Positions 7,203 to 50,132 of a DNA stretch of 64,000 nucleotides are shown here, in pieces (positions within the stretch are counted from its first letter, which is position 1; every line of letters begins with the position of its first letter). Both the position numbers and the translations under genes were made by a program. The notes beneath the pieces are model-generated. The model searched no databases. It was not told the DNA's origin and worked only from the letters and a program-made list of their open reading frames with translations. Source of the stretch: Marinoscillum sp. 108. Lineage in GTDB: Bacteria > Bacteroidota > Bacteroidia > Cytophagales > Cyclobacteriaceae. The DNA lies in contig NZ_LR734808.1 of NCBI RefSeq assembly GCF_902506655.1, forward strand, positions 1,488,001-1,552,000, in the 5' to 3' direction.

Positions 7203-7997
7203 ATGTTTCTGCATCATTCTGTGTTTCTTTGCTACGTGAAAAACTGGTTTTATGCCATTTTATTATTTCATTTCACAAGCATATCAGCTCAGCATGTGAT
7301 CTCAGGGACCGTTCTCAACGAAAGCGAGGAACCGGTGGGCTTCTGCCATGTGTACAATCAAACCATGGGTCTGGGAAAAGTCAGTGACATCCATGGCAAC
7401 TTCAAGGTGACCGCCAAAAAGGGGGACACCTTGCTTTTCTCTTATGTTGGGTACCAATCCCTTACCCTTCCGGTCAACTCCGTTCATCTGGTGAATTACC
7501 TGAAAATCACCCTGCCTGAGGACTCCATTTTATTGCCATCCATTACCATTTATGCAGACCCCAATTATCGGGTCCCTCTGAATGTTCATGATGAGCCTAT
7601 TATCATTCCTGGTGTGAGTATTACGGAAAAGACAGATGGCATTCAGCCAGGTGATGTAGGGTTTGGAGCCACAGGGGTAGGTGGTGTGCCTGTACCAGCG
7701 GTCACCATCTACGGCCCCATCACCTACTTCAGTAGGGACGAGAGGGAAAAACGTCAGGCAGTGGAAGCCTATAAGGAGACCCGTGAAACGATCACCTATC
7801 AGAAATTCATCGTGCAAGATTCTGTCAAACAGAAACTTTGTGAACTCTACCACCTCAACAGTCAGCAATATGACCAGGTGATTGTAAGGCTCCACAACCA
7901 GTTTCCCGGCATACAAAAGCAGTACAACCCCATGGAAATCTGGAACTGGCTGCTCATGCATTTTGACCGGTCAGCCAATATTGTCAGGGATTATTAG
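7203..7997 (+). CDS. Exported carboxypeptidase-regulatory-like domain protein
   Basis: This 264-residue protein has a hydrophobic N-terminus ending ISAQ (about residue 29), followed by HVISGTVLNESEEPVGFCHV and GKVSDIHGNFKVTAKKGDTLLFSYVGYQS, the beta-sandwich CarboxypepD_reg-like domain (residues 30-110) found at the N-terminus of SusC proteins and in many Bacteroidota envelope proteins. No TonB-dependent barrel follows. The remaining 150 residues contain a Gly/Val/Pro-rich stretch (about 145-165) and a charged helical tail of unknown fold. It probably acts in the periplasm or at the outer membrane. It is convergent with the gene ending at 7999, one base away. The function is unknown. Confidence 0.75.
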   Translation: MFLHHSVFLCYVKNWFYAILLFHFTSISAQHVISGTVLNESEEPVGFCHVYNQTMGLGKVSDIHGNFKVTAKKGDTLLFSYVGYQSLTLPVNSVHLVNYLKITLPEDSILLPSITIYADPNYRVPLNVHDEPIIIPGVSITEKTDGIQPGDVGFGATGVGGVPVPAVTIYGPITYFSRDEREKRQAVEAYKETRETITYQKFIVQDSVKQKLCELYHLNSQQYDQVIVRLHNQFPGIQKQYNPMEIWNWLLMHFDRSANIVRDY

Positions 7998-7998
7998 G

Positions 7999-8688
7999 CT
8001 AAGGTCTCTTCATCAGTACATAGCCCACTTTTGCCGACAAAGTAGGCTGTAATCTCAGGCCTCTTTCGTTATTGAAGAAAAAATCATCCCGAAAGAAGTA
8101 GGTTACATTCTCCTCTTGCCTTCGGTTCAGAAGTAGATACATCATGTTCAGTCCAATGTCACCTTCCAGTGTCAGGCGTGGACTTACACTTTTGCTGATC
8201 CCCATCCGGAACCCACCTCCATATCGATGTGAACTAGTCTCTTCATCATAAAACCTGAGATAATCACACGAGCCAGTCCAGTCTGAGGTACATCCATAGC
8301 CTACAGTCACGGGCTCGTCTACCTTCAGATACCGATACATTGCATTGACACTAAAGTACCAAAGGGCTTCCTCCGAGCTTCCGGGTTGATAATAAAAGCG
8401 TAGCTCTTCGCGGGCCTTAAACCCCAAATATTCATCTCCCACAGACTCTTCGCTACGCACCTCAGCCACCACACCCACTTCCTGGGTGAAGCTCACCCAG
8501 GTGCGAAATTGATATTCTAATGACAACAGCACGGATGGATCCTTGGGATTCACAGCATTGGCAAAATCTCCTTTCAGGATCAATCGATTTGCAGTCAGGG
8601 GATGATCTTCCTTCTGAGGCTCCTGATACTGGGCATACAAGCTCGCCGCAAAGAGCGGGAGCAAGCTTACAAGCAGATACTTTTTCAT
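7999..8688 (-). CDS. Predicted outer-membrane beta-barrel-like protein
   Basis: The 229-residue protein begins with a clear signal peptide (MKKYLLVSLLPLFAASLYAQ). The mature part has alternating amphipathic strands rich in Tyr, Phe and Arg, for example LKGDFANAV, LSLEYQFRTWVSF, ELRFYYQP, RYGGGFRMGIS, LTLEGDIGLNMMYLLL, and ends in a strand-like segment, as in small outer-membrane barrels of about 8-10 strands. I do not recognise a named family. It is the last gene of a three-gene operon: its ATG overlaps the TGA of the LVIVD lipoprotein gene as ATGA, so translation is probably coupled. It may anchor or display the two lipoproteins; that is inference. Confidence 0.7.
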   Translation of the reverse strand: MKKYLLVSLLPLFAASLYAQYQEPQKEDHPLTANRLILKGDFANAVNPKDPSVLLSLEYQFRTWVSFTQEVGVVAEVRSEESVGDEYLGFKAREELRFYYQPGSSEEALWYFSVNAMYRYLKVDEPVTVGYGCTSDWTGSCDYLRFYDEETSSHRYGGGFRMGISKSVSPRLTLEGDIGLNMMYLLLNRRQEENVTYFFRDDFFFNNERGLRLQPTLSAKVGYVLMKRP

Positions 8689-9428
8689 TGAATTGGACTG
8701 AATAACTCCAGGTCTTCATCCACGCATCCAAACTGATAGATCCCATCATCTCTGGTGATGATCATGGTGTTTTCAAGGGCGATCATATCGTTTGCCGCTA
8801 TCTCTGTATGGAAATGAATCAAAACAGGGTGTGCCGGATCCTCCAGACTGAACTGCTTGAGCCCGCTAGCCCCTTCGGCTACAAAGAGGTCTCCCTTAAA
8901 AAACGCCAACCCACGAGGATTGATCATCTGCTGCTGATCCACATCAAATGGGTTATCGAGGTTGGATACATCGAGTGTTACCAGCCTATTGGCCTCAAAA
9001 AGCGTGTTATTGCATCCCTCCCCTGATCTGGTTGTGACATACGCATATTGATCATTGGCGATGACCGGATCGCAGGCCGTGCGATGCACAAACTCCGATC
9101 GGTAGGTAGGTCTTCCCAGGGCATCCACGGTGTAGATTTTCATTCCGCTCTGTCCGCCAATAAACAGGTTTCCTTTGAAACCAAAAATCGTTTCTATACC
9201 AGAGCCAATTGGAGTGGAGCTCTGATACTGTGGGTCGGCTACACTGCTGATATTGATAACCTTCAGATCGGTGTTGCTGACGATGTAAAGGAATTCACCA
9301 TTGATGGCAAAACGAGCAGTAGAACCACCCACACCAACACCTCCTCCATCGATGAAGCCTACATCTCCACTCTCATCGGTACAAGACCAGCAAAAAGATA
9401 CTACGAGTAATAAAAGGAGCTTTCTCAT
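8685..9428 (-). CDS. LVIVD-repeat lipoprotein (second of pair)
   Basis: I take the ATG at 9428 (MRKLLLLLVVSFCWSC), because it overlaps the previous stop as ATGA; an in-frame ATG at 9440 would give four more residues. The N-terminus looks like a lipoprotein signal with Cys near residue 16. The 247-residue protein holds repeated blades of the LVIVD type, visible as LKVINISSVADPQYQSS, MKIYTVDALGRPTYRS, LVTLDVSNLDNPFDV and LKQFSLEDPAHPVLI, which would build a beta-propeller. Such propellers in Bacteroidota are surface or periplasmic and of unknown ligand. It is the middle gene of the operon 9949-7999. Confidence 0.8.
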   Translation of the reverse strand: MRKLLLLLVVSFCWSCTDESGDVGFIDGGGVGVGGSTARFAINGEFLYIVSNTDLKVINISSVADPQYQSSTPIGSGIETIFGFKGNLFIGGQSGMKIYTVDALGRPTYRSEFVHRTACDPVIANDQYAYVTTRSGEGCNNTLFEANRLVTLDVSNLDNPFDVDQQQMINPRGLAFFKGDLFVAEGASGLKQFSLEDPAHPVLIHFHTEIAANDMIALENTMIITRDDGIYQFGCVDEDLELFSPIQ

Positions 9429-9949
9429 GGCTTGTAGCATTTAGGTTTTTCAATCATGGTTTGTTCCCAACCTACCACTATTCCCTTACCCTCTTCCACA
9501 CATTCAAAATAGACATTGTTTTGTGATGGGAACTCAGCTGTAAAGCCGATCACATCCTCCAGACGCTTTAAAACGATCACCGTATCGCTGGAAACCTGCA
9601 AAGCGAGGAGATCGTCATAATTATCCGCATAGAGCACCCCATCTTTCATAGCCATATCATGGTTGCCCGGTATGGTCACAAAAAACTTATTCACCGGTTT
9701 TCTGGGATCAGTATTATCATAGACGTGAAGCCCTTTGCCCACTTCGTTGACCAGAAGGAGGTTGCCATAGCTATAGATCTTTCCTGCCGAAACGATGTTT
9801 CTGGCGCTTTCAAGGCCTATGTTTAGTTCGGAGCTGTCTGCATAGATGGGTCTGAAACCCATAGTTGACTCCTGATTGAAATCAGGATGGAAGTCGTCCG
9901 GGCCACAGGCCAGGACCAGCATCGAGAGGAGTAAAAGTGTGTAACGCAT
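9425..9949 (-). CDS. Short LVIVD-like lipoprotein (first of pair)
   Basis: The 174-residue protein has a good lipoprotein signal (MRYTLLLLSMLVLAC; Cys at residue 15). One LVIVD-type blade is visible, GLHVYDNTDPRKPVNKFF, followed by NHDMAMKDGVLYADNYDDLLALQV. It is shorter than the following gene and resembles a partial propeller, so the two may assemble into, or be derived from, a single larger LVIVD protein. It opens an operon with ATGA overlaps at both junctions. A 12-bp hairpin lies 13 bases upstream of its start codon. Confidence 0.78.
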   Translation of the reverse strand: MRYTLLLLSMLVLACGPDDFHPDFNQESTMGFRPIYADSSELNIGLESARNIVSAGKIYSYGNLLLVNEVGKGLHVYDNTDPRKPVNKFFVTIPGNHDMAMKDGVLYADNYDDLLALQVSSDTVIVLKRLEDVIGFTAEFPSQNNVYFECVEEGKGIVVGWEQTMIEKPKCYKP

Positions 9950-9961
9950 GATGGGTCAGTG

Positions 9962-9999
9962 TTTAGTGATGATATGCCTTATGACACATCATCACTAAA
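9962..9999. terminator. Strong 12-bp stem-loop
   Basis: TTTAGTGATGAT at 9962-9973 pairs perfectly with ATCATCACTAAA at 9988-9999, with a 14-base loop. It lies 20 bases downstream of the 4-alpha-glucanotransferase stop and 13 bases upstream of the LVIVD lipoprotein start, both on the minus strand. There is no T-run after it, so it could be a weak terminator, a processing site or a leader structure. Confidence 0.55.
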
Positions 10000-10018
10000 A
10001 ACCGTTGGACGTAGCGCG

Positions 10019-12742
10019 TCAATAATCGGCACTTCGCCCACCCTGATCGATCAGCTGACGGAGAAAAGAGTTAAATCCTTCTTCCTGCAGCAGATCCTCC
10101 ATATTCATATGAAAGCGATACTTCCAGTAATGCTGTGGATTAGCGGGCACATTGATGCGTTCTTTCTCTGGTGTATCAGATCGCAGAGCACCATCCATGG
10201 CAATGAGATCCTGAATAGGAAATATAGCCAGCATACTTGGTGAATGCAGGTGCTGATTGATCACCTGATGAGCCACCCATGGCTCACAGAAGTAGGGAGC
10301 TTTACCCTGTTGTCCCAAAATCTGATTGTAAAACCGCTGGGTCTGCTTATCGTCCTCCTGCCACCATTCTCTCAAAGTAGTCATATCATGGCTGCCCGTA
10401 CTGGTCACACTGAGGTACGGCGTATCCGCGGGATGCCAGAACTCTCTGTCGTCATTGGGCATACGCTGAATGGCCAGACTGAGGATTTGTAATTCACTCA
10501 TTACTCCGGGCACACTGGCCGGCACCATCCCCAGATCCTCTCCGCAGATGAGCATATCAGTTGCCCCTTTCAGCATGGGAAGTTTGCGCATGGCACTTTC
10601 CCTCCAAAAATCATTGTGCCGCTGATAAAAAAAGTGGACATACAGTTGATCTACCTTTTGCTGAGTGTCGTAATCCAGCTCACCATAGGAGTAGGTACTG
10701 TGCAGGCCGATTCGGGGATTAAATGCCTGGCCATCCGAAAGAGGAGCCTCCAGAAACAGTACCTCACTATGAAGTCTGTAGAGGCTGTTTCTGATCCATA
10801 TATTGAAATCCTTGCTCTCGGGATCATTATTCACCAGCTCATCGAAGTGAGCTTTAATTTTTCTTTGGGTATCAAAGGGCTCTTTGAGTGCATAGCATCC
10901 GGCCTTATATTCATGGAGGTACTCTTCCAGTACCAGATCAGCGTAGTTTCCAAAAATATCATAGATCATGTGCCTCCTGATATATGGTCGGCAAAAGCGA
11001 TCATAGTCAAAATTGATTCCACGATCTCTGAGCTCGTTTAAGTGAACTGGGAGAGCCGGGTTAAATCTTCCCAGCAATCCCTCCACGTGCTCCCATGGAA
11101 TCTCCCAGATCCTGAAAAACCCAAGGATGTGATCAATTCTGAATACGTCAAAGTACTCGGACATTTTCACCATGCGATCGCGCCACCAGTGGTAGTCATC
11201 CTTGGCCATTTCCTCCCAATTGTAGGTAGGGAAGCCCCAGTTTTGGCCGGAGATAGAAAAGTCATCCGGCGGGGCTCCAGCCTGAGTGTCCATATTGAAT
11301 AAGTGAGGCAGTCTCCAGGCATCTACAGAGTTTCTGTATATCCCTATGGGGATGTCTCCCTTCAGCACCACACCCTGAGATCTGGCATAAGCGGTAGCCT
11401 CCTTCAGTTGCTTGTCCAGGTGGTACTGGATGTAATAATGGATGGCAATGTCCTGGTAGTGCTTCTGCTTGGGGGCCACGAAAGTTTCCAGCGCATCGCT
11501 GCTCATCTCGGCACAGCTCCCCCATTGGGTGAAATCCGGGGTACCATGTTTATCCCGTAGGTAGCTAAATGCAGCATAATCCGGCAGCCAGTTTTCATTG
11601 TTTTGGAAAAAGTCCTTGAACTCCTTACTCTTCAAAAATGCAGCTCCCTTCTCTTCAAAACTCAGTTTGAAAAATCGGGTTTTTAATTTCATCACACCCT
11701 CATAGTCTACCTCAGGCAGAGCATTCAACCTCGCGGCCTCCTTATCAATCTCCAACTGTACCTTTTTGTCCTTGAGCTTTCCCATGGACTGGAGGTTGGC
11801 ATAAATCGGATGAAGGGCCTCTACCGAGATCGCTGCATACGGGTAAGAGTCCACCCAGGTATGAGTAGCTACCGTATCATTCACGGGCAGTATCTGCACC
11901 ACTTTCAATCCTGTCTTAACGGACCAGTCCACCAGTTTTTTGATATCTGTGAACTCACCCACTCCCGACCCCTCTTTGGACCTGAGCGAAAAAACGGGAA
12001 TGGCCACTCCGGCAGTTTTCCAGTTACCCACCGGGTAATGAAAAAACTCCTCAGAATGCACAATGAGCTTGGACTCCAACGAGAAGGTATAAAGCGGGAA
12101 ATACCTATTTTCACCACCCTCCCAGGTGACCACCCGACCCTCTTTGTGGCTGTAAATGACAAATTTGTATTCAAAAGGCACTTCCTTGGCAGAGGTTGGA
12201 ATATCAACCTTCCATACCGGAAAGTCCTCATCACTCATCAAAACAGCCTTGGACTCGTCCCAGGCTCCCAGGGATTTGGTACTTCCCACCACAGCCATCT
12301 GATAATCTCGCCCGATGCGCGGAGCCCGCAATTGCAAGCGCACAAAATGCGAAGAAGACTTGAGGTCTACTTTGTGTTTGACAGCCTTACCACGCGCAAA
12401 GAATGCTTTGGTGAAGGGCGCCGTGTAAAGTGAGTTCTCAAAGGCATGCTGAGGTCTCCAGTAATCCCGCAAGTGAATCTTATCAAAGTGCTTGTTGACT
12501 TGCAACTTGCGTTCCTCACCAAACTCATGATGCTCCTGGCCGCTCTCATCTCTCAAGAAATAGTGATAGGTGAAATCACCGGTAGATTCGAACGCTACCT
12601 CTGCTGTCCACAAATCTCCGGAGGAGGGCTGCATCTTGACTGCCTGTCTTGCATCTCCTTTTCCCAGCTCTTTCGCTGATCCTGTCACATATACATTCTG
12701 ACCCCACTGTGTCCTATAACCCACTACAAATTTCAGCTTCAT
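10019..12742 (-). CDS. malQ: 4-alpha-glucanotransferase with two N-terminal CBM20-like domains
   Basis: The enzyme disproportionates malto-oligosaccharides (GH77 amylomaltase). Residues 1-100 and about 125-235 look like tandem CBM20 starch-binding domains (KLKFVVGYRTQWGQNVYVTG; YQMAVVGSTKSLGAWDESKA). The catalytic barrel follows: GDIPIGIYRNSVDAW, FDVFRIDHILGFFRIW (nucleophile Asp), CGEDLGMVP (acid/base Glu) and STGSHDMTTLREWW (transition-state Asp). At 907 residues it has the architecture of plant DPE2 and Bacteroides MalQ, and is much longer than the roughly 500-700-residue bacterial form. There is no signal peptide, so it is cytoplasmic. Its ATG overlaps the stop of the SLC45-type transporter gene as ATGA, so uptake and processing are co-expressed. 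Confidence 0.93.
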   Translation of the reverse strand: MKLKFVVGYRTQWGQNVYVTGSAKELGKGDARQAVKMQPSSGDLWTAEVAFESTGDFTYHYFLRDESGQEHHEFGEERKLQVNKHFDKIHLRDYWRPQHAFENSLYTAPFTKAFFARGKAVKHKVDLKSSSHFVRLQLRAPRIGRDYQMAVVGSTKSLGAWDESKAVLMSDEDFPVWKVDIPTSAKEVPFEYKFVIYSHKEGRVVTWEGGENRYFPLYTFSLESKLIVHSEEFFHYPVGNWKTAGVAIPVFSLRSKEGSGVGEFTDIKKLVDWSVKTGLKVVQILPVNDTVATHTWVDSYPYAAISVEALHPIYANLQSMGKLKDKKVQLEIDKEAARLNALPEVDYEGVMKLKTRFFKLSFEEKGAAFLKSKEFKDFFQNNENWLPDYAAFSYLRDKHGTPDFTQWGSCAEMSSDALETFVAPKQKHYQDIAIHYYIQYHLDKQLKEATAYARSQGVVLKGDIPIGIYRNSVDAWRLPHLFNMDTQAGAPPDDFSISGQNWGFPTYNWEEMAKDDYHWWRDRMVKMSEYFDVFRIDHILGFFRIWEIPWEHVEGLLGRFNPALPVHLNELRDRGINFDYDRFCRPYIRRHMIYDIFGNYADLVLEEYLHEYKAGCYALKEPFDTQRKIKAHFDELVNNDPESKDFNIWIRNSLYRLHSEVLFLEAPLSDGQAFNPRIGLHSTYSYGELDYDTQQKVDQLYVHFFYQRHNDFWRESAMRKLPMLKGATDMLICGEDLGMVPASVPGVMSELQILSLAIQRMPNDDREFWHPADTPYLSVTSTGSHDMTTLREWWQEDDKQTQRFYNQILGQQGKAPYFCEPWVAHQVINQHLHSPSMLAIFPIQDLIAMDGALRSDTPEKERINVPANPQHYWKYRFHMNMEDLLQEEGFNSFLRQLIDQGGRSADY

Positions 12743-14070
12743 GCTACTACCTCGTCTTTATCTTCTACAAAATTTACCGTCAGGGCTGCTATAAGCAGAC
12801 ATCCTCCCGCTATGATGAGCGCGAAAATCGCCTGAGAATCAAACAATCTCTTGATAATTGGGCCGCCGATTACGCCATTGACAATCTGCGGCATCACAAT
12901 GAAAAAATTAAAAATCCCCATATAAATCCCCATTTTCCCGCCGGGAATGGCTCCCGCCAGAATGGCATAAGGCATAGAGAGAATGCTGGCCCAGGCCAAC
13001 CCTACAAAGACCATAGCCACCAAAGTGACTGGCTGAGAAGGGAAGAAATAAATAGAGAGTAATCCGAGGCCACCCAGGCCCAATGCGATGGCATGTGTTC
13101 TCTTTCGGCCGACCCTGGCCGCAATGGCCGGAAGTAACAAGGCTACCACCGCGGACACAGCATTGTAAACGGTGAACATCACCCCCACCCAGTTGCCAGC
13201 GTCATTATAAGCCACCGAGGACGAATCCTCAGCGCCAGCGCCATATACGTGCTGCGCAATGGCAGGTGTACAAAAGACCCACATGGAAAACAGCCCAAAC
13301 CAGCTAAAAAACTGCACCAACCCCAATTGCTTCATGGTTTTGGGCATTTTGGCAAAGTCTCTGAAAATATCCATAATGCTGCCCTTCTCCTTCGATTCTT
13401 CCTGCCCATTGAAGGCGGCATACTCCTCAGGGGGATATTCTTTGGTCTTAGCCAGAGTCCATAAGATAGTAGCTATAAAAACTACTGCTCCAAAATAGAA
13501 GCTGAAAATCACATTATCTGGAACCACACCAGCCGGAGCTACTTTGGACACACCCACCCATTCTGCCAGCATGTACGGAAGAAATGAGCCAACCACTGCG
13601 CCCAACCCAATGAGGGAGGCCTGAACCGAAAATCCCTGCGTGCGCTGCTCGGTGGGCAGCATATCCCCCACCAGGGCCCTGAATGGCTCCATAGAGATAT
13701 TGATGGAGGCATCCATGATCATCAACATACCAGCTCCCACAAACATCGGTGGGATAAATGAAGCCAGTGCTCCTGAGTTGGGCATCAAACATAAGGCGAT
13801 AGATGCCAGGATGGCCCCTGTGAGGAAATAAGGCTTTCTTCGCCCCATCCTGTTCCAGGTACGATCACTGTAGTGACCAATAATGGGTTGGACAATTAGA
13901 CCGGTGACCGGTGCTGCCAGCCAAAACCATGACAAGTGCTCTACATCCGCTCCAAAATTTTGGAGTATTCTGCTGGCGTTGGCATTCTGTAGTGCAAACC
14001 CAAACTGAATCCCCAAAAAGCCCATGCTCATGTTCCAAATTTGAGCTGTACTAAGGCCTGGCTTCTTCAT
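12739..14070 (-). CDS. SLC45-type MFS sugar transporter (maltose/malto-oligosaccharide)
   Basis: A polytopic inner-membrane protein with about 12 hydrophobic segments. The signature GHYSDRTWNRMGRRKPYFLTG-like loop (between segments 2 and 3) and MDASINISMEPFRALVGDMLP are characteristic of the SLC45/GPH-like sugar:proton symporters found beside alpha-glucan genes in Bacteroidota. I choose the ATG at 14070 (MKKPGLSTAQIWNMSMG), preceded by an AGAGAG-rich stretch; the frame extends to 14130 but adds an unlikely basic leader. About 443 residues. It is translationally coupled to the 4-alpha-glucanotransferase downstream, so maltose or short maltodextrins are the likely substrate; the exact sugar is inference. 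Confidence 0.88.
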   Translation of the reverse strand: MKKPGLSTAQIWNMSMGFLGIQFGFALQNANASRILQNFGADVEHLSWFWLAAPVTGLIVQPIIGHYSDRTWNRMGRRKPYFLTGAILASIALCLMPNSGALASFIPPMFVGAGMLMIMDASINISMEPFRALVGDMLPTEQRTQGFSVQASLIGLGAVVGSFLPYMLAEWVGVSKVAPAGVVPDNVIFSFYFGAVVFIATILWTLAKTKEYPPEEYAAFNGQEESKEKGSIMDIFRDFAKMPKTMKQLGLVQFFSWFGLFSMWVFCTPAIAQHVYGAGAEDSSSVAYNDAGNWVGVMFTVYNAVSAVVALLLPAIAARVGRKRTHAIALGLGGLGLLSIYFFPSQPVTLVAMVFVGLAWASILSMPYAILAGAIPGGKMGIYMGIFNFFIVMPQIVNGVIGGPIIKRLFDSQAIFALIIAGGCLLIAALTVNFVEDKDEVVA

Positions 14071-14383
14071 ATTTTTCTCTCTTTTATTTTTTCCCAAAAA
14101 CCGGAATTTTTCTAATCTGAAGACTGCCACCGAGAATATCTCTTGAAAAATGTCAAAAACTTCTCAAAACTCTCCATCATGGGTTGGCGAGATACAAACG
14201 ATTGCAAGCTCTCGATTCCATGATTATCTTGCATAATCCTCAAAAAACGGCCTTTTCACAGCTTTAAAATAGAAAATTCCCAATAATTAACAGGCTCCGA
14301 TACAAGAATTTAAAAGGTAGCCATAGGTATCCGACGAACGACTTATATTTGCCACTTATTAAAAGCAACCTAAATACTTACTT
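14071..14383. other. Divergent intergenic region, transporter / aldolase
   Basis: This 313-base spacer separates the transporter gene (minus) from the aldolase gene (plus). TATATTTG at 14344-14351 matches the Bacteroidota -7 element TAnnTTTG and sits 32 bases before the aldolase start; I see no TTTG at the matching -33 distance. No RNA gene, repeat or small ORF is recognised. Confidence 0.5.
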
Positions 14384-15448
14384 ATGAAATTCAGACCTGG
14401 TGTACTTACTGGAAAAGAGGCAACAGACCTTCTTAACTATGCTAACGAAAATGGATTTGCACTGCCTGCTGTAAATACCATCGGCACCAACACGATCAAC
14501 GCAGTACTGGAAGCGGCACGGGAAGTGAATTCTCCAGTGATTGTTCAGTTTTCTAATGGTGGAGCAGCATTCATTGCCGGTAAAGGCTTGAGCAATGACA
14601 ACCAGGCAGCAGCAGTGGCCGGGGCAGTAGCTGGCGCAAAGCACGTACATCAAATGGCAGAAAAATATGGTGTTTCTGTGATCCTCCACACCGACCATGC
14701 AGCCCGCAAACTCCTTCCCTGGATAGACGGAATGCTTGATGCCAACGAAAAGCACTTTGCCGAAACAGGTTCTCCACTTTTCAGCTCTCACATGATTGAC
14801 CTTTCTGAGGAGCCTTTAGAAGAAAACATCGGCACCTGTAAGAAATACTTCGAGCGCATGGCCAAAATGGACATGATTTTGGAAATAGAACTGGGAGTTA
14901 CCGGTGGTGAAGAAGATGGTGTAGACAATACAGACATTGACAACAGCCGACTCTATACACAACCTGAAGAAGTGGCCTATTGCTACGAGCAGTTGATGGA
15001 AATCAGCCCTAATTTCACCATTGCGGCTGCATTTGGCAACGTACATGGTGTCTACAAGCCAGGTAATGTGAAGCTTACACCTAAGATTCTTAAAAACTCT
15101 CAGGATTACATTCAGGAGAAATTTGGCACAGGCAAGAACCCTGTAAACTTTGTATTCCACGGTGGATCAGGATCCACCCGCGAAGAAATCAGAGAAGCGA
15201 TCTCTTATGGTGCCATCAAAATGAACCTTGACACTGACTTGCAGTGGGCATTCTGGGACGGTATCAAAAATTATTACCAGGCCAAAGAAGGTTATCTACA
15301 GGAGCAAATCGGTAACCCTGATGGAGATGATGTGCCAAACAAGAAGCACTATGACCCAAGGGTATGGCTGAGAGAAGCTGAAAAAAGCTTTATCTCCAGA
15401 TTGAAAGTGTCGTTTGAAGATCTAAACAATATCAATCAAAACGCATAA
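14384..15448 (+). CDS. fbaA: Class II fructose-bisphosphate aldolase
   Basis: The 354-residue zinc enzyme cleaves fructose-1,6-bisphosphate in glycolysis and condenses trioses in gluconeogenesis. It is of the E. coli FbaA type: ILHTDHAARKLLPW carries the catalytic Asp and a zinc His, LEIELGVTGGEEDGVDN the following acidic ligands, NVHGVYKPGNVKLTP the next His, and FHGGSGST plus NLDTDLQWAFW the phosphate-binding region. Length and motifs are complete. It is cytoplasmic, transcribed alone, and ends at a strong terminator at 15468. It lies inside the alpha-glucan cluster but is a general housekeeping enzyme. Confidence 0.96.
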   Translation: MKFRPGVLTGKEATDLLNYANENGFALPAVNTIGTNTINAVLEAAREVNSPVIVQFSNGGAAFIAGKGLSNDNQAAAVAGAVAGAKHVHQMAEKYGVSVILHTDHAARKLLPWIDGMLDANEKHFAETGSPLFSSHMIDLSEEPLEENIGTCKKYFERMAKMDMILEIELGVTGGEEDGVDNTDIDNSRLYTQPEEVAYCYEQLMEISPNFTIAAAFGNVHGVYKPGNVKLTPKILKNSQDYIQEKFGTGKNPVNFVFHGGSGSTREEIREAISYGAIKMNLDTDLQWAFWDGIKNYYQAKEGYLQEQIGNPDGDDVPNKKHYDPRVWLREAEKSFISRLKVSFEDLNNINQNA

Positions 15449-15467
15449 TCATTCATAAAATCTAATG

Positions 15468-15492
15468 AAAAGCCATCCTTGTGATGGCTTTT
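15468..15492 (+). terminator. Rho-independent terminator of the aldolase gene
   Basis: AAAAGCCATC at 15468-15477 pairs perfectly with GATGGCTTTT at 15483-15492 around a 5-base loop, and the 3' arm ends in four Ts, followed by CTGTTTT. It lies 20 bases after the aldolase stop. Confidence 0.88.
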
Positions 15493-15574
15493 CTGTTTTA
15501 AAGTCACCAACGAATCCAACCGGTTACTTCCAACTCCGCTTAAGAAATCGATCGAAAACCCCTATTTTAGGCCC

Positions 15575-17398
15575 ATGAAAACACCCCTGTTAATCTTTAT
15601 AATGACCGTCTGCATGTTGGCATGCAGTACCAAAGAATACAACTACAAAGGCGTGCATCCGATGAAAAAAAGCAACGAAAGAATGGTTCTGTATCAGATG
15701 TTTACCCGTCTGTTCGGCAACACCAACACCACCAACAAGCCCTGGGGCACTTTAGAGGAAAATGGGGTGGGTAAGTTCAAAGACATCAATGCAAAGGCGC
15801 TTGGGGAAATTCGAAAAATGGGATTTACCCACATGTGGTATACCGGCGTGATCGAACATGGTGTCCTCACAGATTACACCTCCTTTGGCATCCCGCTGGA
15901 TGATGCAGATGTGGTAAAAGGCCGCGCCGGCTCACCCTATGCCATTAAGGACTATTATGATGTCAATCCGGATCTGGCCGAGTCAGTACCGGACAGAATG
16001 CAGGAGTTTGAAGCACTTATCAGGAGGACGCATGCTGCCAACCTGAAAGTGATGATCGATTTTGTGCCCAATCATGTGGCCAGGGCCTACCACTCAGACG
16101 CAAGACCCGAAGGCATCATTGACTTTGGGGAGGATGACGATACCACCAGGGCCTTTGATCCCAACAACAACTTCTATTACCTGCCCGGTGAGCCTTTTAA
16201 AGTACCAGAAGGTTACCAGTCGCTGGGGGACAACGACTTCCCCACCAAGGATGGACAATTCGCAGAGTTCCCGGCCAAAGCCACCGGAAACGATGTATTC
16301 TCAGCATCCCCTTCAGTGTACGACTGGTTTGAAACCGTAAAGCTCAACTATGGTGTGGATTACCAAAACAACCGCACCACATATTTTGACACAATCCCTG
16401 ACACCTGGAGTAAGATGCGTGACATCCTTCTCTATTGGGCCGCCAAAGATGTAGATGGCTTCCGCTGCGATATGGCTGAGATGGTACCCGTGCAATTTTG
16501 GCAATGGGTGACCAAAGAAGTAAAGGAGCAGTATCCCGAAGTGGTATTCCTGGCGGAGATTTACAATCCCCATGCCTACAGGGAATACATCCAAACAGGT
16601 GGATTTGACTACCTGTATGATAAAGTGGAAATGTATGATACCCTGAAATATATCATACAAAACAAAATGACCACAGATGCCATCACTGGCATCTGGCAGC
16701 GCCAGGATGGGATCGGAGCCAACATGCTCAGGTTTCTTGAAAATCACGACGAACAGCGTATTGCGTCTCCTGATTTTGCGGGAGATATGTGGAAAGGCAT
16801 CCCTATGATGGCGGCATCCACCTTCATGCATACAGGTCCTGTGATGCTTTATTTTGGACAGGAAGTTGGCGAACCCGGCCAGGGGGTGTCAGGTTTTGGT
16901 GGCGATGATGGAAGGACCACCATTTTCGACTACTGGGGGGTGCCAGAGCATGTAAAATGGGTAAATAACGGAGCGTATGATGGTGGCCAACTATCAGAAG
17001 ATCAGAAAGCTTTGCGGGAGGAATACATCGAAATCCTCAAGGCCTGCAATAACATGGAAGCCATTCGTGAGGGCCAGTTTTATGACCTTCACTACTACAA
17101 CCGCAACGATGATTACACAGGCTATAGCGATAAAGTCTACACGTTTGTCAGACATACCCCGAGCGAAGTATTACTGATCGTGATCAACTTTGATGAGAAC
17201 CCACAAACCGCCAAAATAAAGATTCCGGCCCCTGCGTGGGAAACTTTTGGGATCAACACTCCTGTGGCACAAATCAGTGGACCGGTACAAATTAGCATCG
17301 AAGTGGCTTCCACACTGGATTACACGGACGACACTGATCTGGTGATTAAGGTATCCCCCATGAACTATGCGATTTATCAGATGCAGGAAAAACAATAA
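15575..17398 (+). CDS. GH13 alpha-amylase family lipoprotein
   Basis: The 607-residue protein starts with a lipoprotein signal (MLAC, Cys at residue 17) and is therefore envelope-anchored. All GH13 regions are present: VMIDFVPNHV (region I), DGFRCDMAEMVP (region II, nucleophile Asp), VFLAEIYNP (region III, acid/base Glu) and FLENHDEQRI (region IV, Asp). Region II has Cys-Asp-Met rather than the usual Leu-Asp-Ala, so this enzyme belongs to a different GH13 subgroup from the next two. The C-terminal beta-domain ends in YAIYQM. It is the first gene of a run of three with 1- and 8-base gaps (15575-19897). It should act on alpha-glucans at the cell surface or in the periplasm; the product profile cannot be read from sequence. 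Confidence 0.9.
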   Translation: MKTPLLIFIMTVCMLACSTKEYNYKGVHPMKKSNERMVLYQMFTRLFGNTNTTNKPWGTLEENGVGKFKDINAKALGEIRKMGFTHMWYTGVIEHGVLTDYTSFGIPLDDADVVKGRAGSPYAIKDYYDVNPDLAESVPDRMQEFEALIRRTHAANLKVMIDFVPNHVARAYHSDARPEGIIDFGEDDDTTRAFDPNNNFYYLPGEPFKVPEGYQSLGDNDFPTKDGQFAEFPAKATGNDVFSASPSVYDWFETVKLNYGVDYQNNRTTYFDTIPDTWSKMRDILLYWAAKDVDGFRCDMAEMVPVQFWQWVTKEVKEQYPEVVFLAEIYNPHAYREYIQTGGFDYLYDKVEMYDTLKYIIQNKMTTDAITGIWQRQDGIGANMLRFLENHDEQRIASPDFAGDMWKGIPMMAASTFMHTGPVMLYFGQEVGEPGQGVSGFGGDDGRTTIFDYWGVPEHVKWVNNGAYDGGQLSEDQKALREEYIEILKACNNMEAIREGQFYDLHYYNRNDDYTGYSDKVYTFVRHTPSEVLLIVINFDENPQTAKIKIPAPAWETFGINTPVAQISGPVQISIEVASTLDYTDDTDLVIKVSPMNYAIYQMQEKQ

Positions 17399-17399
17399 C

Positions 17400-19001
17400 A
17401 TGAGAGCGAATCTATGGTTGTTTTCAATGGCACTTATCACCCTTGCCTGTAGTCCTATGGAGAAAGAGTTGAAAGAATCTCTACCCGATCGCTGGCCGAA
17501 TGCAGTGACTTACGAAATCTTTGTGCAGTCCTTTGCCGACAGTGATGGAGATGGGATTGGAGACATCAAAGGGATGACCTCCAAACTTGACTATCTACAG
17601 GAGCTCGGAGTAGAGGCAGTCTGGCTGATGCCCATTAACCCCTCTCCCTCCTATCATAAATATGACGTTTCTGATTACTATGGCATTCATAGCGACTATG
17701 GTACAATGGAGGATTTTCAGGAATTCCTGAAGGAAGCACACCAGCGACATATCAAGGTGATCATGGATCTGGTCATCAACCATTGCTCCAGGCTACATCC
17801 GTGGTTTCTCAATGCCCTGAAAGAAGATGGAGAATACAGAGACTATTTTGTATGGGCCGACAAAGCGGGAATTGAGGCTGAGGGAAATCTCCTGAAAGCC
17901 AAAACCGGAGATAGTGACAACATCCACCAATGGAATGAAGTAAGCGGGCAGGATGAGCTTTATTTTTCCTTTTTCTGGAGTGGCATGCCCGATCTTAACT
18001 ATGATAACCCCAAACTGCGAGAAGAAATCTATGAGATTGGAAATTTCTGGCTGACCAAAATAGGCGTGGATGGGTTTCGCCTGGATGCTGCCAAACACAT
18101 CTATCCGGACCATCGGGCAGCCGATAATCACGCCTTCTGGAAAGAATTCAAAACCAAAATGGAGACTTACAAACCAGAGGTCTATCTGGTAGGAGAAGTT
18201 TGGGCAGACCTGCCTACTCAGGCACCCTTTGCTCAGGGATTTAGTGCCCTTTTCAACTTTGACCTGGCTTTTTCCATTATGGAAACAGTGAAAAATGGCC
18301 AGATCGTCAGTGCCACCATCCATGAACACGCCTGGAAAGTCCTGGATGAGGGTTCTCCGGTCACACTTTTCAATGAAAGTGAGAAAGCATTTAAGCAATA
18401 CAACCCCGGTTTTATCAACACCACCTTTCTCACCAATCATGATCAGAATCGGGTGATGTCATTCTTTGAGAATCACGAGAAGAAAGCAAAACTCGCTACC
18501 TCCATTCTGCTGACTTTGCCGGGAGCGCCCTACATCTACTATGGTGAGGAGATTGGCATGCGCGGATTGAAGCCCGATGAACTGATCAGAGAGCCCTTCC
18601 TTTGGGAAACCAAAAACGACTCTATGCGAACACAATGGATGGAACCCACCTATAACACCACGAATGTAGTGGCTCCGCTAAGTGTGCAGCGGAAAGACTC
18701 TGGATCTATCTTCAATCACTATAAATCACTGATTCATTTCAGGAGAAAGTCAGCCGTAATGACCTACGGAGGGGTAGAGCAGATAGACCTGGCCAATGAT
18801 GAATTGCTGGCATTTACCCGATCCCATGCTGGTGACACTGTGCTGGTAGTTCACAACCTCAGCAGCCGAGTGAAGCGTATTCGCCAGCTTGAACCCTACT
18901 CCCTTATCCTTTTTACCTCTTCCAAAAAGGTAAGACAAACCGCGGATGTTTTAGCTTTGCCACCGTACCAAACAATCATTTTATCAAAACCCCAAAAATA
19001 A
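17400..19001 (+). CDS. GH13 alpha-amylase/alpha-glucosidase-type lipoprotein
   Basis: I take the ATG at 17400, one base after the previous stop; the frame runs back to 17367 but the lipoprotein signal (MRANLWLFSMALITLAC) begins here. The mature enzyme has MPINPSPSYHKYDVSDYYG, VIMDLVINHC, DGFRLDAAKHIYPD (nucleophile Asp), LVGEVWAD (acid/base Glu) and FLTNHDQNRVM (Asp). About 533 residues, with a beta-domain at the C-terminus. It is clearly paralogous to the secreted amylase at 20046. Export to the periplasm or surface as a lipoprotein is likely. It would hydrolyse maltodextrins made by the surface amylases; that is inference from context. Confidence 0.9.
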   Translation: MRANLWLFSMALITLACSPMEKELKESLPDRWPNAVTYEIFVQSFADSDGDGIGDIKGMTSKLDYLQELGVEAVWLMPINPSPSYHKYDVSDYYGIHSDYGTMEDFQEFLKEAHQRHIKVIMDLVINHCSRLHPWFLNALKEDGEYRDYFVWADKAGIEAEGNLLKAKTGDSDNIHQWNEVSGQDELYFSFFWSGMPDLNYDNPKLREEIYEIGNFWLTKIGVDGFRLDAAKHIYPDHRAADNHAFWKEFKTKMETYKPEVYLVGEVWADLPTQAPFAQGFSALFNFDLAFSIMETVKNGQIVSATIHEHAWKVLDEGSPVTLFNESEKAFKQYNPGFINTTFLTNHDQNRVMSFFENHEKKAKLATSILLTLPGAPYIYYGEEIGMRGLKPDELIREPFLWETKNDSMRTQWMEPTYNTTNVVAPLSVQRKDSGSIFNHYKSLIHFRRKSAVMTYGGVEQIDLANDELLAFTRSHAGDTVLVVHNLSSRVKRIRQLEPYSLILFTSSKKVRQTADVLALPPYQTIILSKPQK

Positions 19002-19009
19002 ATTTTCAA

Positions 19010-19897
19010 ATGAACAACATCTCAGTAATAGGCTCTGGTACCATGGGCAACGGAATCGCACACGTGTTTGCGCAGCACGGCTATCAGGTGGCCCTGATTG
19101 ACATTTCGGAAGAAGCCCTAAAAAAAGCATTGGCTACCATCAGCAAAAATCTGGATCGACAGGTCGCCAAAGAGAAGATTACGGAAGCCGATAAAACGGC
19201 CACCCTTGCCAATATCACCACTTTTAGGGAGGTAGCACAAGGCGTAAAAAATGCAGATCTGGTGATAGAAGCCGCCACGGAAAATTTTGAGATCAAAAAG
19301 CAAATTTTCCAGACGATGGACGCACACTCACCGGCCAAGGCCATTCTGGCTACCAACACCTCCTCCATCTCCATCACTAAAATAGCGGCAGAAACCAAAA
19401 GACCAGCACAGGTGATCGGTATGCACTTCATGAATCCTGTACCGGTAATGAAACTGGTAGAAGTGATCCGTGGCTACGCTACCAGTGATGAAACCACCCA
19501 GGCCGTGATGGAAGCTTCAGCCAAACTCCAGAAATCACCCGTAGAAGTCAACGACTATCCTGGTTTTGTGGCCAATAGAATACTCATGCCGATGATCAAT
19601 GAAGCTATTTACACCCTTTTTGAAGGAGTAGCTGGTGTAGAGGAAATAGACACGGTGATGAAATTGGGCATGGCTCACCCAATGGGCCCACTTCAGCTGG
19701 CCGATTTCATCGGGCTTGATGTGTGTCTCTCTATCATGAAGGTGCTGCACGAAGGCTTTGGCAATCCAAAATATGCACCCTGCCCGCTGCTGGTCAATAT
19801 GGTCACTGCCGGCTACAAGGGCGTAAAAACCGGCGAGGGTTTTTACCAATACACTCCGGGTTCCAAAGACCTGGTAGTGAGCGGAATGTTCAAATAA
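19010..19897 (+). CDS. 3-hydroxybutyryl-CoA dehydrogenase
   Basis: The 295-residue NAD(P)-dependent enzyme interconverts 3-hydroxyacyl-CoA and acetoacyl-CoA. It shows the Rossmann motif VIGSGTMGNGIAHVFA, the motif ATNTSSISITKIA, the catalytic-His region GMHFMNPVPVMKLVEVI, and NRILMPMINEA followed by GMAHPMGPLQLADFIGLD. The length is that of the stand-alone short-chain form. It follows the GH13 gene by 8 bases, so it is probably on the same transcript, although it has no obvious role in glucan use; it ends at a strong terminator at 19908. It is cytoplasmic, unlike its two exported neighbours. Confidence 0.93.
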   Translation: MNNISVIGSGTMGNGIAHVFAQHGYQVALIDISEEALKKALATISKNLDRQVAKEKITEADKTATLANITTFREVAQGVKNADLVIEAATENFEIKKQIFQTMDAHSPAKAILATNTSSISITKIAAETKRPAQVIGMHFMNPVPVMKLVEVIRGYATSDETTQAVMEASAKLQKSPVEVNDYPGFVANRILMPMINEAIYTLFEGVAGVEEIDTVMKLGMAHPMGPLQLADFIGLDVCLSIMKVLHEGFGNPKYAPCPLLVNMVTAGYKGVKTGEGFYQYTPGSKDLVVSGMFK

Positions 19898-19907
19898 AAC
19901 TCAGCAA

Positions 19908-19943
19908 TACAGGCTGCTCAATTAAATCACAGAGCAGCCTGTA
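19908..19943 (+). terminator. Rho-independent terminator after 3-hydroxybutyryl-CoA dehydrogenase
   Basis: TACAGGCTGCTC at 19908-19919 pairs perfectly over 12 bp with GAGCAGCCTGTA at 19932-19943, loop 12 bases, followed by CTTTTG. It closes the GH13-GH13-dehydrogenase transcript. Confidence 0.85.
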
Positions 19944-20045
19944 CTTTTGCCATACGTTAGGTATTAGGGATAAAGGCTGGTATCAAAACGCTACCCTCCT
20001 TTTTACCGATTTCATTACCTTGCCCCTTCCCTTGAACCTCATTGT

Positions 20046-21872
20046 ATGAAAAACTACCTCCTTGTCTCCATTCTTTTCCTCGGTCACCTCACCCAGGCAC
20101 AATCCGAACTTGACTGGTGGAATGATGCGGTCTTCTATGAAGTATTTCTAAGGAGCTTTTATGACAGTGATGGGGATGGTGTGGGAGACTTCAAAGGACT
20201 CACCGAAAAGCTGGATTACCTCAACGACGGTGACCCCAACACGGACACTGACTTGGGAATCACAGGCATCTGGTTGATGCCCATCAACCCATCTCCCAGC
20301 TATCATGGCTATGACGTCACCGACTATAGTGGCATCAACCCTGACTATGGCACCATGGAAGACTTCAAGGCCTTTCTGGCTGCTGCACATGCCCGCGGCA
20401 TTAAGGTAATCATAGACTATGTAATGAACCACTCTTCTGCGCAGCATCAGTGGTTTGTGGACTCAAAAAGCTCCGCATCTGCTGAAAAACGGGACTGGTA
20501 CAGGTGGAGCGACACGAAGCCCGGATACAGCGGGCCCTGGGGACAAAACGTTTGGCACAGCTCCGGCACCGGATACTACTACGGTATATTCTGGGATCAA
20601 ATGCCCGATCTCAACTATGAAAATGCAGACCTGAAAGCCGCCATGTTTGACCATGCCGCCTACTGGATCGATGAAATAGGGATCGATGGATTTCGGCTGG
20701 ATGCCGTCAAATACATCTATGAAAATGGTAGTCAGCTGGAAGACCTGGAAGCCACCCATACGTTTTTCAAAGACCTGAGCAGCCATATCAAATCCTTCAA
20801 TCCTGATGCCATCACCGTAGGGGAAGCCTGGACCAGCACGAGCAAAGTGGTTCCTTACGTGACCGATGAGCGCATTGACTTCTGTTTTGAGTTTGACCTG
20901 GCCACGAGCATCATCAATGCGGCCAGATCGGGAAGTATTAGCAATCTGACTGACCAGGTCACCAATGTGATCAACGCTTACCCGTGGTATCAGTTTTCTA
21001 CTTTTCTCACCAACCATGATCAAAACCGCATCATGAATGAGTTAAGTTCTGACATTGGCAAATCCAAAATTGCAGCGTCTATATACCTGACACTGCCCGG
21101 TGTACCTTTCCTCTATTATGGCGAGGAAGTGGGCATGCTGGGAGCCAAGCCAGATGAAAACATACGTCGCCCTATGCAATGGACGGGAGGGAGAAACGCC
21201 GGGTTTACCACCGCCGGATCAGCCTGGAATGCCCCCTCTTCCAATTATGCCGACAACAACGTAGATAAAATGGAAGATGACCCCTCTTCCCTACTCAACC
21301 ATTACAAAAAACTCATTCATACCCGCAACGAGTATGCAGCACTGCGTACCGGAGATTTCATTACCCTTGATGCTTCTCTGGGTGGCGTGCTCACCTACCT
21401 GCGCCAATTAGATGATGAAAGGGTAGTCATTGCCATCAACACTACTTCCAGTAACAAGCGCTTCGATATTGACTTTTCGTCCTATGCAAGCGCCTCTGAC
21501 CTACCGCCTTTTGACCATATAGGTGGTGAATCCCTCCTCTCGGTATCCTCTGAGGGCGATCTTAAAGGCCTCTTTTTATCTCCCTATCAGACCATGATAC
21601 TTACGTTTGATCGGGAGGCCACCGTGCTCAACGCCTCCTCCTACGGGCAGTTTGAGGTTGTCCCCAATCCGGCTCATGATCTCATCAGGATCAACACTGG
21701 GACTAAAAACCTTGTACAACACTATCAATTGTTGGCTCTGAATGGTGCGGTCGTACAATCAGGAGTTTTTAAAAATGAAATCCCGGTAGAGAAGGTGGAT
21801 AACGGGCTTTATCTGCTGAAAATCACAATGGGCAACATCACCCATCAGCAAAAAATCATCATCAAGCACTAG
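20046..21872 (+). CDS. Secreted GH13 alpha-amylase with T9SS sorting domain
   Basis: The 608-residue enzyme has a standard signal peptide (ending TQAQ), a GH13 barrel with MPINPSPSYHGYDVTDYSG, VIIDYVMNHSS, DGFRLDAVKYIYENG (nucleophile Asp), TVGEAWTSTSK (Glu) and FLTNHDQNRIM (Asp), a beta-domain to about residue 520, and then a C-terminal T9SS type A domain starting FEVVPNPAHDLIRIN and ending LYLLKITMGNITHQQKIII. It should be exported through the outer membrane and attached to the surface or released, to open starch-like glucan. It has its own transcript after the terminator at 19908. The T9SS tail is the main difference from the lipoprotein paralogue at 17400. Confidence 0.93.
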   Translation: MKNYLLVSILFLGHLTQAQSELDWWNDAVFYEVFLRSFYDSDGDGVGDFKGLTEKLDYLNDGDPNTDTDLGITGIWLMPINPSPSYHGYDVTDYSGINPDYGTMEDFKAFLAAAHARGIKVIIDYVMNHSSAQHQWFVDSKSSASAEKRDWYRWSDTKPGYSGPWGQNVWHSSGTGYYYGIFWDQMPDLNYENADLKAAMFDHAAYWIDEIGIDGFRLDAVKYIYENGSQLEDLEATHTFFKDLSSHIKSFNPDAITVGEAWTSTSKVVPYVTDERIDFCFEFDLATSIINAARSGSISNLTDQVTNVINAYPWYQFSTFLTNHDQNRIMNELSSDIGKSKIAASIYLTLPGVPFLYYGEEVGMLGAKPDENIRRPMQWTGGRNAGFTTAGSAWNAPSSNYADNNVDKMEDDPSSLLNHYKKLIHTRNEYAALRTGDFITLDASLGGVLTYLRQLDDERVVIAINTTSSNKRFDIDFSSYASASDLPPFDHIGGESLLSVSSEGDLKGLFLSPYQTMILTFDREATVLNASSYGQFEVVPNPAHDLIRINTGTKNLVQHYQLLALNGAVVQSGVFKNEIPVEKVDNGLYLLKITMGNITHQQKIIIKH

Positions 21873-50000: not shown

Positions 50001-50132
50001 GCGGAAAGTCGTGTTTCCATGGGGATAGCCGTGATTGGGGGCATGATTATCGCCACCTTTCTGAGCTTATTTGTGATACCGGCCATTTACTCATTCCTTA
50101 CCAGCAAGCAAAAAAGACTAAGCAGAGTATGA
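47073..50132 (+). CDS. RND (HAE1-type) efflux transporter
   Basis: The 1,019-residue inner-membrane pump exports hydrophobic or amphiphilic compounds by proton exchange. It has the AcrB-type N-terminus (SISNISIERPVLAIVMSVII), YPSVDPPVITVSTSYTGA, the helix-4 proton-relay GLVVDDAIVVLENIYS, and the C-terminal half MIMLIGLITKNGILIVEFAN. Two large periplasmic loops follow helices 1 and 7. It is slightly shorter than AcrB. The stop overlaps the TolC-type gene as ATGA. Confidence 0.96.
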   Translation: MASISNISIERPVLAIVMSVIIILFGVIGFNFLGVREYPSVDPPVITVSTSYTGASADVIETQITEPLEESINGIDGIKTLSSISADGRSTITVEFNLEVDLEAAANDVRDKVSRAIRNLPPDADPPIVTKADADSSPIIALRIFSEKRNLLEMTEIADNIFKETFQTIPGVSEVRIWGEKKYSIRLWMDPDKLAAYRLTPLDILNSVGDQNIELPSGRIEGSATELTVRTFGRLSSPEEFNDLILKESDNDIVRFRDIGRAEFFPENERTALRNNGIPLVLNAIVPQPGSNNLEIAAEFYKRLEGLQKNLPEDISTEIAFDNTQYIKESIAEVQQTIFVAFGLVVLIIFAFLRDWRTTFIPVITVPIALIGSFFTMYALDFSINVLTLLGIVLAIGLVVDDAIVVLENIYSKIEDGMEPEEAGKKGTKEIFFAVISTTVALTSVFFPIVFLQGLTGRLFREFGITVAVAVVISSFVALTLTPMLSSKMLKKRERKQWFYRKTEPFFIWMNNGYNNALDSFMDNRWLSGLIIIISGVLIYIFALTLPSELSPLEDRGQFRIFATGPEGATFEYMDAYATEMTSVLSEKVPEAKSIITITSPGFTSSGSVNSAFIIMKLEDAKNRKRTQHEIVMDVQPEVAKNTKARAFINEPESIGRSFGGMPVSFVIQARNLDQLKEVLPAFLAKASANPHFSFVDLNLKFNKPEIGVRIDREKAQTMGVSVKDIAQTLQLSLSGNRFGYFIMNGKQYYVIGQLEKSNRNEPLDLRSIYVKASNGELVQLDNLVTLEERSTPPQLFHYNRFTSATVSAKLAEGVSLGEGLKEMDLIAEEVLDDRFQTALSGTSLEFQQSASNLYFAFALALILIYLVLAAQFESFRDPLIIMFTVPLALSGALLSLWYFNESLNIFSQIGMIMLIGLITKNGILIVEFANQRKAQDYSIMESIKGAAKMRFRPILMTSLSTILGILPIALALGAGAESRVSMGIAVIGGMIIATFLSLFVIPAIYSFLTSKQKRLSRV

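Follow-up and report, generated by a model that had tools for sequence, protein, structure and literature searches.

What do two short lipoproteins, encoded one after the other and followed by a small outer-membrane barrel, make together: two propellers and a neighbor, or one propeller delivered in two pieces? The question is raised by three genes on the minus strand of a 64,000-nucleotide stretch of the Marinoscillum sp. 108 genome, which we call the window. In order of reading they are P0002, P0001 and P0003 (Table 1). The initial annotation took the two lipoproteins for LVIVD propellers of unequal length. That they are lipoproteins stands, but single-chain relatives, in which both halves are fused in one gene, favor one seven-bladed propeller in two pieces over two propellers. 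The suspicion that the first lipoprotein is a partial propeller was well placed, as alignment to a fused relative gives P0002 two blades and a ribbon.

The gene trio and its families

Both junctions of the trio are exact ATGA overlaps, as the initial annotation had described. It had also read a fixed stoichiometry from them, and this we do not retain. In a gene list of the window made by hand, 4 of 29 same-strand neighbor pairs overlap by 4 nt, and the trio accounts for only two of these (the others are at 12739-12742 and 50129-50132), so such overlaps are nothing special here and are no sign of fixed stoichiometry. In relatives, with start codons picked by rule, the first junction (between the N-terminal and C-terminal pieces, hereafter N and C pieces) overlaps by any length in 15 of 20 loci of the same family vs. 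only 10 of 80 loci from the order and class. With a second in-frame ATG of P0001, at 9440, the first overlap would extend to 16 nt; the start at 9428 yields a typical lipoprotein signal, MRKLLLLLVVSFCWSC.

The LVIVD label holds for P0001, which matches PF08309 at 23.0 bits (curated cut-off 20.2, E = 4.9e-5) over residues 34-66. It does not hold for P0002, which matches nothing in Pfam or NCBIfam at E ≤ 1 and is recognizable solely through its single-chain relatives. PF08309 is described as a 42-residue repeat (PMC2447325), and a member of the family has been modeled by contacts and by homology to 4jsn_B (PMC8078820). P0003 scores 14.3 bits against PF12099 (DUF3575), under the curated cut-off of 21.1. 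DUF3575 is found at E ≤ 0.1 in 5 of 13 aligned P0003-type barrels, P0003 among the five at E = 0.026, with a best value of 1.5e-7.

Lipoprotein signals can be read from the sequence in P0002 (LACGPDD) and P0001 (CWSCTDES), and P0003 starts with a signal peptide that we read as ending in AQ. The first version of our lipobox rule allowed no Trp at position -2, so P0001 was missed; the second version accepts both P0002 and P0001. By our own pattern rule, a lipobox-like Cys is present in 78/101 first halves and 93/101 second halves of the split loci described below.

Table 1. Positions of the trio and of its junctions and cysteine codons in the window.
Feature	Position	Strand	Basis
P0002, 174 aa lipoprotein, putative first propeller piece (blades 1-2 + beta ribbon)	9425..9949	-	ORF; homology to N-terminal part of single-chain relatives; blades by hand from fused-relative model
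P0001, 247 aa lipoprotein, putative second propeller piece (blades 3-7), PF08309 LVIVD match	8685..9428	-	ORF, Pfam, homology, fused-relative model
P0003, 229 aa predicted outer-membrane beta-barrel, eight strands, OmpA/OmpW/NspA-like	7999..8688	-	Model m0d4dbb0fb03b, Foldseek PDB matches, DUF3575 matches in relatives
ATGA overlap, P0002 stop / P0001 start	9425..9428	-	Sequence
ATGA overlap, P0001 stop / P0003 start	8685..8688	-	Sequence
Presumed lipidated Cys15 codon of P0002 (CGPDDF from Cys)	9905..9907	-	Sequence; lipobox rule
Presumed lipidated Cys16 codon of P0001 (CTDESG from Cys)	9381..9383	-	Sequence; second lipobox rule
Cys150 of P0002 (YFEC), first Cys of pair	9500..9502	-	Invariant in 19 aligned split N halves
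Cys171 of P0002 (PKCY near C terminus), second Cys of pair	9437..9439	-	Invariant in 19 aligned split N halves
Cys133 to Cys141 codons of P0003, in predicted outer loop L3 (joins strands 5 and 6)	8266..8292	-	Model strands 108-131 and 143-167

Split and fused relatives of the lipoprotein pair

Of 60 genomes from the family Cyclobacteriaceae, the window's own among them, 51 have a match to P0002. Most of the matching open frames fall into two length classes, 170-212 and 424-507 aa; four more measure 117, 286, 330 and 670 aa. We read 20 short-frame and 20 fused-type loci from the same family. The C piece follows the N piece in 21/21 split loci (the 20 and the window), all of them picked for a short N frame. 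Of the 20 fused-type loci, 19 hold both halves in a single gene coding for 421-496 aa. Farther out, a profile of 19 split N pieces matches 90/192 genomes of the order and 75/296 of the class, and the C piece follows the N piece in 80/80 further short-frame loci from these ranks, again loci picked for a short N frame; three short-frame matches (G306, G452 and G334) were left out of the reading. The window, the 20 family loci and the 80 beyond the family make up our 101-locus split set, which contains no named loci. The 199-row and 48-row trees and the tabulation of Cys pairs mix named loci with those carrying G handles, and four loci found to be identical under two names were folded in the 199-row tree (L262 = L037, L249 = L124, L201 = L109 and L202 = L070). 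Among 162 newer loci added for covariation, three have an N piece with no C piece within the short locus. Genomes of family f11 often hold one short-frame and one long-frame copy (e.g. G069, G200 and G540). One split pair, L256, comes from a MAG labeled Desulfobacterales, outside Bacteroidota, where contamination seems likely.

At the level of sequence, these comparisons show the predicted products P0002 and P0001 to be homologous to one single chain, with conserved synteny. The initial annotation had proposed the trio as an envelope gene set, to be checked by a neighborhood survey; the survey finds the synteny conserved in relatives, with the C piece after the N piece in 101/101 split loci and a P0003-type barrel next in 65 of them. 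Might the split instead be a frameshift, annotation or sequencing artefact of a single gene? One broken fused gene does exist, the twentieth fused-type locus (L056 = L212), where the LVIVD gene is divided into frames of 272 and 166 aa; the same genome, G009, also has a split pair, L034. However, every one of the 100 relatives that were read for the split arrangement has it, and in 93/101 split loci the second piece opens with a lipoprotein signal of its own. Because the split recurs with its own signal on the second piece, we reject this reading as having a negligible chance of being right.

A beta-propeller is, as a rule, taken to be one closed chain, and the fused relatives offer such a chain for comparison. 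We used an AlphaFold model of L255, from Reichenbachiella versicolor, built from an alignment of 44 sequences (pLDDT 84.8, pTM 0.80). It has seven four-stranded blades, with strands counted by hand. As aligned, L255 is 36% identical to P0001 and 31% to P0002, and the fold is taken from the model of this relative, not from the pair itself. In the alignment to L255, the N piece falls on blades 1-2 and the C piece on blades 3-7, the blades having been assigned by hand from the strand list; strands 55-66 and 183-195 of the model sit outside the blades and are read as the ribbon of the N piece. The gene pair is cut between blades 2 and 3, at a place that corresponds to residues 207-219 of the model, and these have a pLDDT below 50. 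Such single-chain LVIVD lipoproteins, found in Bacteroidota and Balneolota, are homologous along the length of both window pieces. They differ from the window pair in having one signal peptide and a low-confidence linker where, in the pair, one chain stops and a second signal peptide begins.

Against solved propellers, VIA-align gives the L255 model a Z of 27 and 2.1 Å over 262 residues (model range 78-426). In Foldseek the top three matches, and many of the lower ones, are BamB, along with other propellers, with a TMq of up to ~0.51. Eight-bladed propellers also rank high in Foldseek, so the blade count of seven rests on the strand reading and VIA-align. A sequence search against solved structures at E ≤ 1 returned only two haloalkylphosphorus hydrolase chains, over 76 positions.

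If the two chains close into a ring, covariation between them is expected at two seams, blade 1 with 7 and blade 2 with 3. We ran mean-field direct coupling analysis on the propeller columns of 212 unique split pairs, among them that of the window (effective number 170). Of the 10, 20, 50 and 100 strongest inter-chain couplings, 6, 10, 19 and 32, respectively, fall on the seams, where 1.9, 3.7, 9.3 and 18.5 are expected. Over 20 shuffles of the N/C partners, the top 50 hold a mean of 7.7 and a maximum of 12 seam couplings, and the 1-7 plus 2-3 assignment ranks 1 among 20. When eight late splits are taken out (204 rows), the counts are 7/10, 8/20 and 18/50; 26 shuffles inside the two types reach maxima of 4, 7 and 17, respectively, one of the 26 being close for the top 50 (17 vs. 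18). The first run, with 132 split rows, had been weaker (2/10, 15/50 and 29/100 on the seams); the split set was enlarged after this result, and later runs were limited to blade columns. The 75 fused rows alone place 12/50 on the seams, rank 2 of 20, and some of the inter-chain coupling in the split forms may be a legacy of a fused ancestor. We also considered the window's own Cys-pair type by itself (154 rows), but at 11/50 vs. 9.3 expected the signal is too weak to stand as support of its own.

How the two forms are related was read from three trees. In a 199-row FastTree tree, the fused/split state changes at least six times, with five of the changes forced by supported branches. A 48-row mixture-model tree has four changes, two of them forced, and a first 40-row tree had two. 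Late splitting is seen most clearly in a Marinoscillum-type group (L160, L161, L200, L203 and L235) inside the fused clade of the 199-row tree; four of the five are also in the 48-row tree, where the Balneolota copies are fused. By these phylogenies, the split and fused forms have been exchanged several times at the predicted blade 2-3 linker.

The fused-relative model and the covariation make it very likely that the two chains would close into one ring. A different arrangement can be imagined, with P0001 as a self-closed five-bladed propeller and P0002 as an independent partner or ligand. Five-bladed propellers exist, and each protein has its own lipoprotein signal. P0002 might also be stabilized on its own by the Cys pair near its C terminus: both residues are invariant in the alignment of 19 split N halves, from which L048 and L050, both without Cys150, had been left out, and a pair of P0002-like spacing ends 58/101 split N halves. 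Yet the fused relative is modeled as one ring, the inter-chain couplings point to the 1-7 and 2-3 seams, and splits arise inside the fused clade, with five of eight retaining that clade's barrel family. We hold two separate proteins to be unlikely.

The barrel and its linkage to the propeller

The model of P0003 has a pLDDT of 83.8, a pTM of 0.75 and eight long strands. Its Foldseek matches in the PDB include OmpA, NspA and OmpW, at modest TM scores: 0.35-0.51 when normalized to the length of the query, 0.46-0.64 to that of the target. In the OmpA topology the loop between strands 5 and 6 faces outward, and this is the loop in which P0003 carries a Cys pair. The P0003 pattern of loop cysteines occurs in 41 of 86 adjacent barrels, with the pair elsewhere in the chain in one of the 41 (L172). 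In a plain table, 40/62 barrels next to a Cys-pair first half have it vs. 1/24 of the others. The tree offers only 1-2 independent pairs for co-evolution of the two Cys pairs, so nothing is drawn from this table.

Where a barrel is recognized, its family follows the propeller lineage. A P0003-type barrel lies directly downstream in 65/101 split loci (13/20 in the family, 51/80 beyond it, and the window) and in 0/61 fused loci. The single-chain lipoproteins have a small outer-membrane barrel downstream too, of a different family, in 39/61 loci (16/19 same-family, 23/42 named); this second family directly follows 2/101 split loci. Of the split forms, only late splits have it, five of the eight that lie within the fused clade; L137, L146 and L256, which make up the eight, have neither family. 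A profile comparison of the two barrel families gives a probability of 90 over just 60 columns, and their HMMs had no common matches in the loci searched. In three split loci (L111, L124 and L130), a second P0003-type barrel lies close to the first.

The main reason for thinking that P0003 may touch the propeller is that each propeller lineage goes with its own barrel family, and on this co-inheritance we judge contact reasonably likely. The barrel might, on the other hand, be merely an operon neighbor. Gene adjacency by itself is no proof of contact, and no barrel of either family is recognized directly downstream in 34/101 split loci (4 of the 34 with less than 1 kb of sequence left) or in 22/61 fused loci. 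Against a chance neighbor stands the tracking of the propeller lineage by the family of the recognized barrel, which includes the five late splits with the fused-clade family, and we consider an absence of contact fairly improbable.

Our overall reading, which we regard as probable, is of a two-piece seven-bladed propeller, each chain lipidated, that works with the P0003 barrel at the outer membrane. P0002 (blades 1-2 and the ribbon) and P0001 (blades 3-7) would each be exported by its own lipoprotein signal; both lipidated chains would reach the outer membrane and then close into one ring, and the ring would dock on, or be anchored by, the eight-stranded barrel. The assembly would probably face outward and serve at the cell surface as a platform for binding or as a receptor.

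On which face of the membrane the assembly lies is suggested by the residues after the lipid Cys. An acidic residue is present within five residues of it in 67/78 first halves and 83/93 second halves, counts that come without a control set of periplasmic lipoproteins. The published Bacteroidetes export signal is a polar or positive residue and then acidic residues after the +1 Cys (PMC5080379), and CGPDD of P0002 and CTDES of P0001 resemble such signals, a likeness also without a control set. Since the counts lack this control, surface exposure is something we infer from the acidic residues, and we lean toward it slightly.

The opposite orientation has a precedent. BamB is an eight-bladed propeller lipoprotein bound to BamA in the periplasm, and the trio could likewise be a periplasm-facing factor for outer-membrane assembly or quality control, with P0003 as its client or anchor. 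The Foldseek matches of the L255 model, with BamB in the first three places and many lower ones, speak for such a role. In VIA-align, however, BamB is not among the 50 matches listed, which is no proof of absence, and the acidic residues are of the kind found in the export signals above. Among the loci read, moreover, 65/70 P0003-type matches lie directly after a split pair, which would be odd for a general client. A BamB-like role therefore seems doubtful to us, if worth keeping in mind, beside the surface-facing assembly.

One further idea concerns why the ring would be split at all. Two lipidated pieces that meet at the outer membrane could let it close around something threaded through its central hole, either the projecting barrel loop with its disulphide cap or a surface polymer. 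This would be impossible for a one-piece closed ring, and recurrent splitting at one linker would then be adaptation, not drift. We give this idea very little credence.

Known systems and gene neighborhoods

Propellers completed between chains are known from Sec13-Nup145C and Seh1-Nup85, in which a blade inserted from another protein completes the propeller. The window shares with them completion between chains and differs in that one propeller appears to be divided between two lipidated chains. The propeller of BtuG is one chain, unlike the proposed two-chain propeller of the window. BtuG-BtuB of Bacteroides is the nearest working analogy to the trio, a likeness drawn from architecture only: BtuG is a seven-bladed surface lipoprotein propeller that is encoded beside the barrel BtuB and bound to it (PMC6143338). 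BtuB is a TonB-dependent transporter, and the barrel of the window is much smaller, with eight strands.

In the open-access literature searched on LVIVD, we found no function given for LVIVD-repeat proteins. The open-access work searched on LVIVD, surface/T9SS propeller lipoproteins, split or two-chain propellers, gene fission, DUF3575 and ECF sigma factors with type IX secretion yielded no description of this system or of a two-chain LVIVD propeller. Within the literature searched, the LVIVD repeat and propeller lipoproteins are already known and the two-chain form is apparently new. The family would be one that repeatedly divides one propeller into two separately exported, lipidated proteins, in some genomes with a single-chain cousin alongside. 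It lends itself to the questions of how two chains can close a ring and what would favor having two membrane anchors, and it gives a plausible structure to gene pairs barely recognized by family libraries.

The surroundings of the trio were also considered as a guide to function. In the window and in the congener G007, the trio adjoins malQ. Other split loci have other neighbors, named by reading sequences: an exopolyphosphatase-like cluster in six and a methionine-synthase-like one in four. Because the neighbors vary among split loci, no functional reading was taken from them. The window region 10019-21872 resembles a maltodextrin cluster beside the trio, with malQ, an MFS sugar transporter (Pfam) and three amylase-like proteins (at 15575, 17367 and 20046, from their translations). 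Between malQ and P0002 there is an inverted repeat at 9959-10002, with 18-nt arms (89%) and an 8-nt loop; by eye, a hairpin of other sequence occupies the same place in the congener locus L032. On the other side, a CarboxypepD_reg-like domain protein on the plus strand (7203-7997) is convergent with the trio; its BamP match is weak, at 26.9 bits against a cut-off of 230.

The fused cousins have neighbors of their own. In 9/20 fused-type loci (L053, L054, L055, L057, L061, L064, L065, L069 and L070), an ECF sigma-like gene and a gene for a large protein lie upstream of the fused gene, the large protein resembling an anti-sigma factor that ends in a barrel. Pfam confirmed the sigma domains in L053, the one locus scanned, whose 492 aa protein matches nothing in Pfam at E ≤ 0.1. 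These ECF sigma-like neighbors hint at envelope signaling. A divergent neighbor in L053 (9134-10432) carries a type 9 secretion plug domain (PF17116, E = 5e-34, from the scan of L053 only), and relatives of this protein are found in 7/20 fused-type loci.
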